Source: Calditrichota bacterium
Lineage (GTDB): Bacteria; Calditrichota; Calditrichia; RBG-13-44-9; J042
Length of the DNA: 64,000 nt
Reading direction: 5' to 3'
Assembly: GCA_013150955.1 (NCBI GenBank)
Contig: JAADJD010000043.1
Location: 62,001 to 126,000, forward strand
Positions 43,966 through 50,393 of the stretch are shown piece after piece. The position numbers were made by a program, and so were the translations under genes. The notes beneath the pieces were generated by a model that was not told the origin of the DNA, ran no database searches, and saw nothing but the letters and a program-made list of their open reading frames with translations. The stretch's first letter is position 1. Each line of letters opens with the position of its first letter.

Positions 43966-44625
43966 ATGAAAATCATATTCTGGGATGTGGATACACAATA
44001 CGATTTCATGATGTCCGATGGAAAACTCTACGTTCCCGGTGCAGAGGAAATCATCCCCAACCTGGAAAAGTTGACCCGTTATGCCCGCGATAAAGGGATT
44101 CCCATTCTGGGATCGGTGGATTACCACAATCCCGATGATCCAGAAATTTCCGATCAACCGGATTTTAAGGAGACGTTTCCACCCCATTGTTTAAAAGGCG
44201 AACCGGGACAGGAGAAAATTGACGCCACCCGACCACAAAACCCCCTCTGGATCGATTCCGATCCCCTCGATCCTGACCGGTTGAAGCAGATGATAGAAGC
44301 GCATCAGGGAGAAATTATTTTTCGGAAACAGCGGTTCGATGTATTCACCAATCCCAACGTCGAACCGGTATTGAACATCGTGCGTCCAGATGTCATTGTG
44401 GTGTACGGCGTGGCCCTGGATGTGTGCGATATGTATGCGATGGAAGGTTTCCTGCGGATCGGGAAGTACCGGTTGTATCTGGTGGAAGATGCCACACGCC
44501 CGATTTATCCGGAACGCGGTCAGGAGTTGATTAAGAACTGGAAGGAAAGAGGGGTGCACATTGTTCAGACCCGCGATGTGGTTGAGAAAGAGATTCTTTT
44601 TCAGTCTCCGGAAACCGTTGCCTGA
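43966..44625 (+). CDS. Isochorismatase-like cysteine hydrolase (nicotinamidase-related)
   Basis: This 219-residue protein starts with MKIIFWDVDTQYDFM, whose Asp9 matches the catalytic aspartate. Lys is in FRKQRFDVF, and the nucleophile is in the segment VVYGVALDVCDMYAMEG. The metal-site pattern and the long insertion CLKGEPGQEKIDATRPQNPL suggest a nicotinamidase-type enzyme that releases ammonia from a small amide. The substrate is not certain. RBS AAGGAGG precedes the ATG. It is a single gene with a terminator. Confidence 0.82.
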   Translation: MKIIFWDVDTQYDFMMSDGKLYVPGAEEIIPNLEKLTRYARDKGIPILGSVDYHNPDDPEISDQPDFKETFPPHCLKGEPGQEKIDATRPQNPLWIDSDPLDPDRLKQMIEAHQGEIIFRKQRFDVFTNPNVEPVLNIVRPDVIVVYGVALDVCDMYAMEGFLRIGKYRLYLVEDATRPIYPERGQELIKNWKERGVHIVQTRDVVEKEILFQSPETVA

Positions 44626-44952: not shown

Positions 44953-45675
44953 TTAAGCGGAGCCAGAGATGGCCAACCGGGCTTCCTGAATGGCTTTTTC
45001 CAGCCCCACAAGGAACGCCCGATGGATCAGGCTTTTCCCCATGGTGATGTCTTCCAGGTGGGGAATTTGTACCAGATCCGCCAGGTGGGAATACCCGATA
45101 TTCCCGAAGCAATTGATGCCCAGCCCCAGCTTGGCCGCACCCATGGCGGCCGTTTTCAAATTATCCAGTGCCACCAGCTGATCGTTGGTGTCTGTAGCAC
45201 GGGTGTATTCGCTGCAATCCAGTTCGACATAATCAATCTCCAGCTTGCTCAGGGACTTTAACACGTTAATGTCGGGTGCAATCAGCACAGCCACAGAAAT
45301 GTTGTTGGCCTGGAAATCGGGCAGGACTTCGGCTAACGTTTCGTTTAAAATCGCGGTCGAAAGGGGCAGCAGTTGATCGGGATTGCTGCTGGAAATTTCC
45401 ACAAAGGTGACCATGTCGGGAGCAATGGACAGAGCCAGTTTAAAGAGGTCGGTGTGAAAGGGAATGTGCAGGTTCAGGTACGATCGGCGAAGCTCCTTAA
45501 GCAATCGGATGTCTTTTTCCTGAATCCCCCGGCTGGAATGGGACAGGGTAACGGTTAATCCGTCGGCGCCGTACGTTTCGCATAAAATGCCATAGCGTAT
45601 GGGATCCACGGCATCGGTACCAAAAATTTCCTGAATTCTGGCAATATCATCCAGAGCAATCGTTAAGCGCTTCAT
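44953..45675 (-). CDS. Divergent PdxJ-fold protein (pyridoxine 5'-phosphate synthase homologue with altered active site)
   Basis: This 240-residue TIM-barrel protein aligns with PdxJ along its length: DPIRYGILCETYGADGLTV, EKDIRLLKELRRSYLNLHI, DYVELDCSEYTRA and HLEDITMGKSLIHRAFLVGL. Yet the PdxJ active-site motifs are changed: NxDH is ALDD (7-10), HLREDRRHI is TLSHSSRGI (43-51), GHG is FGN (190-192), and NIGH is TMGK (211-214). Glu151 remains. It probably no longer makes pyridoxine phosphate. It is the last gene of an operon with two paralogous lipoproteins, 18 bp after the second. The real function is unknown. Confidence 0.72.
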   Translation of the reverse strand: MKRLTIALDDIARIQEIFGTDAVDPIRYGILCETYGADGLTVTLSHSSRGIQEKDIRLLKELRRSYLNLHIPFHTDLFKLALSIAPDMVTFVEISSSNPDQLLPLSTAILNETLAEVLPDFQANNISVAVLIAPDINVLKSLSKLEIDYVELDCSEYTRATDTNDQLVALDNLKTAAMGAAKLGLGINCFGNIGYSHLADLVQIPHLEDITMGKSLIHRAFLVGLEKAIQEARLAISGSA

Positions 45676-45693
45676 TCCCGGCAGTCTCCTCTT

Positions 45694-46221
45694 TTAAATT
45701 TGTAAATCTTCCCACAGGGTAATATACCACTTCTTCCCCCGCTTTATGAATTTGAAAATGACTTCGCCGTTAAGGGTGGGGATGGATTTCCCCCCATCAA
45801 AGGTCAGGGTGAAGGTTTTCTTCATCTCCGCTTCGGTCTGGGTGGAGTCGTAATACAGATAAATGGTGGAATTCCAGATCAGATCGATGGTGTTAAAGAA
45901 ACGAAACATGCGGGCGGTGGTACGCAATTCGGTGTCCCGCCCCCATTCGATGGGTACGGGCGGCGTCACGTTGTAGTCCCAGCTGCGAAAAATGAAGGTG
46001 CTGTCGAAAAGCTCGCTGTAAATCAACGAATCCTTGTAAGTGTACGCGTAGCGGAAGTTGGTAAGTACGGCTTCCGGGCTTTCCTGATTGGTCAGCAATC
46101 GGGAATAGGATAGGCCTTCTTCCACGGCTGCCGGCGCAAAGGGGTTCACACAGTTTACAATGATCAGATAAGCGGTAAGTAGCAAGAATGCCAGCAATTG
46201 TGTCAATTTCCCGCCACCCAT
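45694..46221 (-). CDS. Lipoprotein of unknown function, CxNPF type, paralogue 2
   Basis: This 175-residue protein has a hydrophobic leader ending IIVNC, followed by VNPFAP. The lipobox has Asn rather than Gly or Ala before Cys. The mature part, with NFRYAYTYKDSLIYSELFDS, FIFRSWDY and KKWYITLWEDLQI, resembles the product of the preceding gene and could have an NTF2-like fold. It starts two bases after the upstream stop. The protein is probably attached to the outer membrane. No function can be assigned. Confidence 0.68.
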   Translation of the reverse strand: MGGGKLTQLLAFLLLTAYLIIVNCVNPFAPAAVEEGLSYSRLLTNQESPEAVLTNFRYAYTYKDSLIYSELFDSTFIFRSWDYNVTPPVPIEWGRDTELRTTARMFRFFNTIDLIWNSTIYLYYDSTQTEAEMKKTFTLTFDGGKSIPTLNGEVIFKFIKRGKKWYITLWEDLQI

Positions 46222-46223
46222 GG

Positions 46224-46826
46224 TTAGTTGTACCGGTAATTGGCTTTCAGCGTCGACCAGGTGTCCTGTTCATCACGGCCGGAATGAAAGTCTTCCCAGT
46301 GGAAGATGTACCATTGCGACAGGGACGAACGCAGAATTTTCATGACCGCCCGTCCCTGGTAACTTTCGACCTGCTTTCGAAACACCAGGTTAATTCGATA
46401 GGCGAACTGGGTGTACAGAGTGTCTGCGGATGTGGGTGCGGCGTTCCACTCGGTCTGGTCGTAAAAGGAAATTTCAATGCGTTCCAGATCGTTTTGATTG
46501 ATGAGGTTGGTGAAGTAATTGATCTCGTCCTGGCGAGACCAGTTGCTGAAGCGAAACGATTCGTTCTTTTCAGGGATGAACACAAAGTTTTTTCCCACTT
46601 CCTGGGAGTCGGCCAGGCATTCCTCATAATAGGTCACGTTTTTCTGAAGGAATGCATACTGCAATTTGGCCAGCAGTGAATCCGGATTGTTCTGAAGGTT
46701 TTTGGATAATTGTTTACCGCCGGTCAGGATGGGTGGCTCCGGCGTCCGAACGGAAAAAGGATTGGTACATTTCCAGAAAAAAAAAGTAAAATAAATGAGC
46801 AAATATGTAAGCAGTTTTTTTCTCAT
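46224..46826 (-). CDS. Lipoprotein of unknown function, CxNPF type, paralogue 1
   Basis: This 200-residue protein begins with a hydrophobic leader and FFFWKC, then TNPFSV. It shares the order of motifs with the next gene: LAKLQYAFLQKNVTYYEECLADS, FRFSNWSRQ and QWYIFHWEDF correspond to similar stretches there. Two tandem paralogues plus the PdxJ-like gene form one minus-strand operon. Its start faces the divergent ligA gene across 76 bp. A weak promoter, TTTCCA-17 bp-TAAATT, precedes it on the minus strand. Function unknown. Confidence 0.68.
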   Translation of the reverse strand: MRKKLLTYLLIYFTFFFWKCTNPFSVRTPEPPILTGGKQLSKNLQNNPDSLLAKLQYAFLQKNVTYYEECLADSQEVGKNFVFIPEKNESFRFSNWSRQDEINYFTNLINQNDLERIEISFYDQTEWNAAPTSADTLYTQFAYRINLVFRKQVESYQGRAVMKILRSSLSQWYIFHWEDFHSGRDEQDTWSTLKANYRYN

Positions 46827-46893: not shown

Positions 46894-48924
<2,031 letters not shown>

Positions 48925-49061
48925 AAGCAATTATTCGGGCGGATGTGTGCTGGGTTACAGCGGGTCTGTTGAAAAATGTTAATTTGATGGGAACCACAGT
49001 CTGGTAGTCGAATACATATTAAAATGCTGGATGTGGAAAAAAGAATTTGGAGGAGACTGTT

Positions 49062-50393
49062 ATGAAGCGTTTCATGCTGTTTGCATTGGTGTTCGGGCTT
49101 ATTGTGATGGTGGGTTGTTCAAAGGATACGACCGGCCCTGAACAGGAACCCCCCGTTTTGCCGGAAAATCTGGATCAAAATGTGGTCACCACTCCAACAG
49201 ATGCGCCTGATCAGGTAAAGTTTTATGGAGGCCCCCTAAATACTTTTCGACAGAGGTTTCAATTGGTGTTTCAACAGTGGAGAGCTCTGATTCAGACCAC
49301 GGAAGCGAAATTTGAAGACGGCAAGTGGGTCTGGGAGCAGACTCAGAATAACTTTACGATTCGGCTGGTGGCCTGGATGGAAGATGACGGTACCCAGAAG
49401 TGGGAACTTTATTTTGACGGCACGGATCCCGATACCAAGCTTCAATTCAACAATGTAAAGGTCCTGGAGGCGTCCCTCAGTCCAGATGGCAAATCCGGAA
49501 CATTTAAGGTTTACGATCCGGTAACAAATACCCCGTTGTTTACCTACAGCTGGACGGTAGCGGATAATGGCACCGTTCAGGCAACTCTGGAAACCAGCAA
49601 TAACGAACGCATTGAGGTGGTCAATCGTCCGGATGGATCGGGGAGTCTGGAGGTGTACATTAATGATGTGAAGCGGCTGGAAGCCAGCTGGGATGCCGAT
49701 GGTAACGGAACCTGGACGGCTTACGATGAGAACGGTCAGCAAATTGGAACCGGTAACTGGGGGCCGGGTGGTGTAGCACCGCCCGATGTGTCGACCACCC
49801 TGGAGACTGCTGTGGTGGAGGTTCCCGATAATGCCCCATCCAATGTCCGTGCCATGGGAGCTCCCTATTTTGCATTTCATAATTTGTTTAAGGGATGGCA
49901 TCAGTGGATGAAAACGGTGATGCTCCAGGGACGGATGGTACACCAGGATACCACCTGGACCTGGGAAGTCAGTGCGAATAACTTGACAATACGGCTGGTG
50001 GTTACCGTTGGCCAGGATAGCAGCAAACAATGGGCGCTGTATTTCGATGGTACCGATGCGAGCGGTAATACCTACAATAACTGGAAGGCCATGGAAGGCT
50101 GGATCAGCGCTGATGAGAAAAGCGGCACGCTTACGCTGTATGAGACCAATTCCACCAACGTACTGGTCACATACGAGTGGACAATCGATGACCAGGGCAA
50201 TGTCAGCGCCGAAGTGCAAACCAGTGACGGCTATCGGATCGTGGCCCAGAAAAACGCGGATGGATCCGGTTTCCTGAAATTCTATCTGAACAACGTCCTT
50301 CGGCTGGAAATATACTGGAATGCGGATCGTTCAGGTAACTGGAAGGCATACGATGAAAATGGAAATTTAATTAACCAGGGCAGTTGGGGATAA
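49062..50393 (+). CDS. Lipoprotein with two tandem ~195-residue repeats
   Basis: This 443-residue protein has a lipoprotein signal ending LIVMVGC (Cys19) and a short Pro/Glu-rich linker. Two homologous halves follow, at about residues 41-234 and 250-443. Both contain NNFTIRLV or NNLTIRLV, then YFDGTD, a KSGTF or KSGTL segment and a YDENG motif, and end in NWG or SWG. The halves look beta-rich. No family was recognised. RBS GGAGGAG lies six bases before the ATG at 49062; the ATG at 49047 is out of position. A terminator follows. Confidence 0.78.
   Translation: MKRFMLFALVFGLIVMVGCSKDTTGPEQEPPVLPENLDQNVVTTPTDAPDQVKFYGGPLNTFRQRFQLVFQQWRALIQTTEAKFEDGKWVWEQTQNNFTIRLVAWMEDDGTQKWELYFDGTDPDTKLQFNNVKVLEASLSPDGKSGTFKVYDPVTNTPLFTYSWTVADNGTVQATLETSNNERIEVVNRPDGSGSLEVYINDVKRLEASWDADGNGTWTAYDENGQQIGTGNWGPGGVAPPDVSTTLETAVVEVPDNAPSNVRAMGAPYFAFHNLFKGWHQWMKTVMLQGRMVHQDTTWTWEVSANNLTIRLVVTVGQDSSKQWALYFDGTDASGNTYNNWKAMEGWISADEKSGTLTLYETNSTNVLVTYEWTIDDQGNVSAEVQTSDGYRIVAQKNADGSGFLKFYLNNVLRLEIYWNADRSGNWKAYDENGNLINQGSWG
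49182..50390 (+). repeat. Intragenic duplication in the lipoprotein gene
   Basis: The encoded halves (49182-49765 and 49809-50390) align over their whole length at protein level. DNA-level identity is much lower, so the duplication is old. Confidence 0.8.

Follow-up and report, generated by a model that had tools for sequence, protein, structure and literature searches.

The window, a 64,000-nucleotide stretch of a Calditrichota genome, carries on its reverse strand a presumed three-gene operon that ends in a gene related to pdxJ, the gene for PNP synthase. The features of the locus are as follows.

44953..45675, reverse strand: PdxJ-like gene, 240 amino acids, ATG start; an open reading frame with a PF03740 match and with the catalytic residues lost
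45685..45690, reverse strand: probable ribosome-binding site (AGGAGA) of the PdxJ-like gene, read directly from the sequence
45694..46221, reverse strand: LpB, a 175-amino-acid lipoprotein predicted to have an NTF2/cystatin-like fold and separated by 18 bases from the PdxJ-like gene downstream of it
46224..46826, reverse strand: LpA, a 200-amino-acid lipoprotein paralogous to LpB; first gene of the presumed three-gene operon
46903..48924, forward strand: ligA (NAD-dependent DNA ligase), divergent neighbour, named by inspection of its sequence

The first-pass annotation had placed the PdxJ-like gene after a pair of paralogous lipoproteins, and this is the arrangement found, with both immediately upstream (45694-46221 and 46224-46826). 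LpB has a signal sequence and a lipobox cysteine (Cys24), and its AlphaFold2 model (pLDDT 71) matches NTF2-like and CaMKII-hub folds in Foldseek (E 5e-5); neither LpA nor LpB matches a Pfam family. An Rfam search of the locus returned no RNA element, and scans for promoters and terminators there performed no better than on shuffled sequences. A convergent gene resembling isochorismatases and nicotinamidases (43966-44625, forward strand; PF00857, 67 bits) adjoins the PdxJ-like gene, a neighbour seen at this locus in the genome's own family only (G000, G026 and G027). Near the locus on the other side is a gene for a 448-amino-acid lipoprotein (49047-50393, forward strand), which consists of two similar halves of ~200 amino acids, i.e. 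an internal duplication.

The PdxJ-like protein of the window matches PF03740 over profile positions 1-231 of 234 with 145.9 bits (E 1.4e-42; curated cut-off 24.5), and this is the sole Pfam family that it matches, with no further domain. The solved structures closest to it in sequence are without exception PdxJ. The AlphaFold2 model, built from an alignment of four sequences only, is a barrel with a mean pLDDT of 76 and a pTM of 0.78, and its best 16 PDB fold matches in Foldseek are again all PdxJ (TM-score about 0.7-0.84, E 8e-13 or better), bearing out the earlier view that the PdxJ barrel framework is kept. Triosephosphate isomerase is the next fold family (E 8e-8), and other barrels trail the best PdxJ match by ten orders of magnitude. 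Membership of another TIM-barrel family can therefore be rejected, as the profile and structure searches proposed in the first-pass annotation yielded none better than PdxJ. A phage gene was also considered and rejected, since viral contigs carry no related locus. The protein falls under every NCBIfam pdxJ equivalog cut-off, scoring 117.7 against 192.75 for TIGR00559 and 126.2 against 190 for NF003625, and lower still relative to the cut-offs of the remaining pdxJ equivalogs. It is a member of the PdxJ sequence family that lies outside the PNP-synthase function class.

The active site was assessed at 14 ligand-binding and catalytic positions of E. coli PdxJ, read off the alignment in UniProt numbering; we take these positions, and the catalytic roles of His45, Glu72 and His193, to be those of UniProt entry P0A794. 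The window protein keeps three of the 14 residues (D11, E153 and G215). The catalytic residues are changed to Thr, His and Gly (H45>T, E72>H, H193>G), and the substrate-binding residues are all replaced (N9>A, H12>D, R20>F, R47>S, H52>G, T102>D, G194>N, H216>K). In addition, residues 95-105, which form the active-site closing loop in PdxJ (PMC10471632), are unrecognisable, VPEKRQEVTTEGG having become VEISSSNPDQLLP. The four motif changes previously claimed are all real in the alignment to E. coli PdxJ; the catalytic Glu72 and the closing loop had been missed. The residue named Glu151 in the first-pass annotation is E153 in E. coli numbering. Canonical PdxJs from diverse genomes (n = 26) retain 14 of 14 residues in 25 cases and 13 of 14 in one, so that the loss to 3 of 14 is far beyond chance. 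A further 26 full-length PdxJs, picked mostly for a low score or for lipoprotein neighbours, have catalytic H45, E72 and H193 intact, the Bacteroidota-type ones among them standing at 11 of 14. Taking the residues together with the pathway context described below, PNP synthase activity has probably been lost.

Vitamin B6 is supplied by other genes. The window gene is the sole PF03740 match in a genome that is 99.7% complete, so the search for another, canonical pdxJ that the first-pass annotation suggested found none. pdxS, with pdxT directly downstream, lies on another contig, in agreement with the earlier remark that no other B6 gene is nearby; both proteins clear their NCBIfam equivalog cut-offs (PdxS 520.7 against 395, PdxT 221.5 against 105.55). 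Profile searches gave zero matches in this genome to PdxA (PF04166), which is also found in none of the 16 genomes of the order, and zero to the C-terminal domain of PdxH (PF10590). With PdxST complete and PdxA and PdxH without a match, the DXP-independent route is the source of PLP in this genome, and any PNP synthase would be without the enzymes that usually act upstream and downstream of it. Because B6 is accounted for by PdxST, the missing canonical pdxJ does not imply that the PdxJ-like protein is a PNP synthase. The PLP homeostasis protein YggS/PLPBP is present in the same genome and in 36 of the 40 Calditrichota genomes, and the idea that the PdxJ-like protein stands in for a missing YggS/PLPBP was rejected on that ground.

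Among the 40 Calditrichota genomes, the PdxJ-like protein is found in 35, PdxS in 37 and PdxA in 14. The gene is retained across six families, nearly always as a single full-length copy (the G031 copy is split across two contig ends), with reading frames intact almost without exception. Every PdxJ copy in the phylum is decayed: 33 full-length proteins keep 3-5 of the 14 site residues, and the more divergent G027 protein keeps one. In a tree built without G027, the Calditrichota proteins form one clade with support of 100/90. Values of dN/dS are 0.08, 0.07 and 0.05 in the three PdxJ-like pairs with measurable dS and 0.19 in one canonical pair; dS is saturated between the window gene and its nearest relative. 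The gene is under strong purifying selection in Calditrichota. PdxA is confined to genomes outside the window's own order, and groups f4 and f6 carry it (e.g. L062:1393-2406). The PdxH model is negative in 34 of the 40 genomes, including the 14 PdxA-bearing ones and among them G023 and G024, two incomplete MAGs in which a decayed PdxJ and PdxA occur and PdxS was not detected. A partnership between the decayed PdxJ and PdxA in f4 and f6 is weakened as an explanation by f5, which has the same pocket without PdxA.

The gene order LpA-LpB-PdxJ is conserved across Calditrichota, and in 23 genomes the ligA cluster adjoins the lipoprotein pair, so that ligA marks the ancestral locus. Genes downstream of the PdxJ-like gene differ by order (a weakly GH2-like protein plus SMC, an NAD(P)HX repair enzyme, or an unassigned protein), and across the Calditrichota loci there is no conserved metabolic neighbour that would point to a pathway. 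A search for LpA over 385 genomes showed that in other phyla the family adjoins intact canonical pdxJ. The order is LpA-LpB-pdxJ in G368, LpA-LpB-PF04748-pdxJ in G040 and LpA-PF04748-pdxJ in G229, and the PdxJs of all three have 14 of 14 site residues; comparable orders are also found in G312, G175, G246 and G173. Across such LpA loci in other phyla, PdxJs carry 13 or 14 of the 14 residues. Since the lipoprotein neighbours are the same as those of intact pdxJ, the decayed gene is the old pdxJ locus and a vertical descendant of it. An imported paralogue beside a hidden canonical pdxJ is rejected by this positional orthology together with the single PF03740 match, and the association of lipoproteins with intact pdxJ likewise disposes of the idea that they are tied specifically to the decayed form.

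Decay of PdxJ recurs outside the phylum. PF03740 matches were found in 231 of the genomes searched outside Calditrichota, 11 of which also have PdxS (G084, G092, G093, G094, G127, G143, G217, G267, G333, G359 and G367), and in all 11 PdxJ has lost catalytic residues. Nine are decayed, with 2-8 of 14 residues; the other two, G267 (L150) and G127 (L152) of one genus, stand at 13 of 14, the sole loss being that of catalytic Glu72 to Gln; these two appear to be at the outset of the same process. PdxS is present with 9 of 13 decayed and 2 of 212 intact PdxJs (Fisher P about 1e-11, for genomes that are not independent); six fragmentary matches were left aside, and the 212 were called intact by score, only about 50 of them by residue. 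In G150 and G287 (L097/L098), a decayed resident PdxJ upstream of a SecD-like gene is accompanied by a Bacteroidota-type PdxJ elsewhere, and here the resident has been replaced by an imported relative instead of PdxST. Decayed PdxJs are also found in G129 (L099) and G227 (L094), where neither PdxS nor another PdxJ was detected. In G129, which is 100% complete, the decayed gene follows genes resembling cdaA-ybbR-glmM. The decayed PdxJ of G359 (L091:8374-9102), which lacks His45, Glu72 and His193, passes TIGR00559 with 202.8 against 192.75. In the tree, G217/G129 and G143/G227 fall amid canonical sequences on long, weakly supported branches. Several of the losses are apparently independent, and for Calditrichota, G359, G084 and G092 the tree is compatible with one or more losses. 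Three points go beyond what the first-pass annotation had described: the decay extends over the whole phylum, the gene is itself the original pdxJ of the locus, and the same has happened in phyla where PdxST took over.

The conservation pattern within Calditrichota bears on what the protein now does. The 14 old pocket positions, taken as a set, are at the top of conservation in canonical PdxJ but do not rise above random sets of positions in Calditrichota (fraction 0.11 in groups f4-f6, 0.25 in the window's own order and 0.20 over all). In a conservation ranking of about 240 positions, the phosphate positions 102, 194 and 216 come at about 160-228, apart from 194 in the own order, which comes at 130. 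Conversely, about a dozen positions are nearly invariant in Calditrichota and variable in canonical PdxJ: R5, D89, M90, K142, K146, D150, Y151, D164, E168, K184, G188 and N190. Judging from the secondary structure of the model, the new positions lie mostly at or just before the starts of beta-1, beta-4, beta-6 and beta-7 and in helices alpha-5 and alpha-6, which would place most of them on the far side of the barrel from the former active site. They could partly reflect fold stability or shared ancestry within one phylum. A pocket set without raised constraint combined with new constrained positions favours a protein that is retained, probably non-catalytic, and has a new interface.

The strongest competing explanation is a new enzyme, in which the PdxJ barrel has been re-tooled for another reaction. 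Its substrate would be small and might carry a phosphate, and the residues used would be Asp11, Arg/His72 and Glu153 together with a glycine loop at beta-7. Across the Calditrichota proteins D11, E153 and G193 are invariant or nearly so, and position 72 is mostly conserved too, Arg or His having replaced Glu72 phylum-wide. As positions 9, 45, 47 and 52 are conserved in f4-f6 as well, giving the set D9-D11-Y45-R47-T52-R72-E153-G193, this near-invariant pocket core fits a remodelled catalytic or ligand site. The change of His193 to Gly yields SGGI or FGNI, a sequence similar to the loop at beta-7 with which other TIM barrels bind phosphate. However, the old pocket set as a whole is without raised constraint and the phosphate-contact positions vary freely, the pocket set differs between the own order (A/S/L9, T45, G52) and the other orders, flanking genes vary between orders with no metabolic neighbour conserved, and the identical pocket of f5 in the absence of PdxA leaves no link to PdxA products. 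We therefore consider a new enzyme rather unlikely, while giving it more weight than any of the explanations that follow.

A sensor of PLP, PNP or a phosphate ligand was the other role envisaged in the first-pass annotation. The ancestor bound PNP, and the protein persists in cells whose PLP comes from a different route, as might be expected of a sensor; yet within the pocket the phosphate-site positions show the lowest conservation and the pocket set does no better than random sets, YggS/PLPBP is encoded separately here and in most of the phylum, the operon contains no B6 gene or regulator domain, and the locus has no Rfam RNA element. A sensor is accordingly improbable, and of the earlier enzyme-or-sensor proposal what stands is that the active site is replaced and a different function likely, the sensor half being so far unsupported. 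That the protein continues to make PNP through an altered active site, beside or instead of PdxST, is very improbable: PdxA is kept in 14 genomes of the phylum, two of which (G023 and G024) have no detected PdxS, but all three catalytic residues are gone along with both substrate sites, the own order lacks PdxA in all 16 genomes, the PdxH model is negative in most of the phylum, and PdxST is complete in the genome itself. Equally hard to credit is a passive relic retained by chance or by its operon position, which would suit a gene without its catalytic function inside an old conserved cluster but is contradicted by dN/dS of 0.05-0.08, near-universal open frames, retention in 35 of 40 genomes over six families, and the newly constrained positions.

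On balance, the best explanation, which we hold to be somewhat more probable than all others together, is that the protein is a retained pseudo-PNP-synthase: the old pdxJ, still in place after takeover by PdxST, with a role outside B6 synthesis that is probably non-catalytic. The phylum's original pdxJ has been inherited vertically and still lies behind the LpA-LpB lipoprotein pair. Presumably once PdxS and PdxT had taken over PLP synthesis, it lost the PNP-synthase site, including His45, Glu72 and His193, the closing loop and the two phosphate sites, and retained the barrel. The barrel would have been kept for a second role, either independent of PNP synthesis from the outset or arising afterwards. 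In its present mode the protein would most likely be a binding or scaffold protein that does not catalyse the PdxJ reaction, with an interface formed by the newly constrained residues around the starts of beta-1, beta-4, beta-6, beta-7 and beta-8 and in alpha-5 and alpha-6; a small pocket made of Asp11, Arg/His72 and Glu153 might remain. The non-catalytic mode is suggested by the pattern of constraint. Counting against this explanation are the near-invariant pocket core and the four genomes with a decayed PdxJ and no detected PdxS (G023 and G024, which also have PdxA, and G129 and G227). More tentatively, the second function of PdxJ might have predated the decay, such that each replacement by PdxST (or by an imported PdxJ) cost the catalytic residues and the protein was kept; we regard this as plausible, if somewhat doubtful.

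A 2023 survey, in which pdxJ served as the signature gene for the DXP-dependent route, placed Caldithrix abyssi in a group of ten genomes that seem to carry both B6 pathways, remarking that the DXP-dependent pathway of those ten might be incomplete (PMC9997740). A decayed PdxJ would explain the Caldithrix abyssi entry if genome G001 of the phylum is that organism. Since the decayed G359 copy exceeds the TIGR00559 cut-off, automatic annotation would continue to label that decayed copy a PNP synthase. An enzyme that is catalytically lost and nonetheless kept for the age of a phylum, with repeated parallel cases elsewhere, is a clear, testable sign that PdxJ, an enzyme for an essential vitamin, has or can gain an unrelated job. 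If the second function did predate the decay, there would be a recurrent class of pseudo-PNP-synthases, phylum-wide in one case, and a hidden second role may also exist in the canonical PdxJ of ordinary bacteria. No account of a PdxJ pseudoenzyme turned up in the literature collection searched.

Compared with PdxJ itself (PF03740; E. coli 1HO1/1M5W, Y. pestis 3F4N and P. aeruginosa 5DLC), the window protein shares the fold over its whole length (TM-score about 0.8, 24-25% identity), retains Asp11, Glu153 and Gly215, and has a lipoprotein-pair neighbourhood in common with pdxJ of related phyla. Unlike PdxJ, it is without His45, Glu72 and His193, the binding sites for DXP and amino-acetone-phosphate and the closing loop at 95-105, scores under the pdxJ equivalog cut-offs, and is found in cells with PdxST. 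The decayed PdxJs of G359, G084, G092, G333, G367, G093, G143, G217 and G150b/G287b have the catalytic loss in common with it, although the residue replacements differ; PdxS is present in eight of the ten genomes and a second, Bacteroidota-type PdxJ in the remaining two, and several of the genes are at an LpA/PF04748 locus. Plant PDX1.2 is a catalytically inactive homologue of PdxS/PDX1, a paralogue that acts in complex with active PDX1. The PDX family is treated in PMC11863972. Both PDX1.2 and the PdxJ-like protein are barrels of B6 synthesis in which catalysis was lost and the protein retained, but the PdxJ-like protein is the only PdxJ in its cell, without an active partner of its own family.
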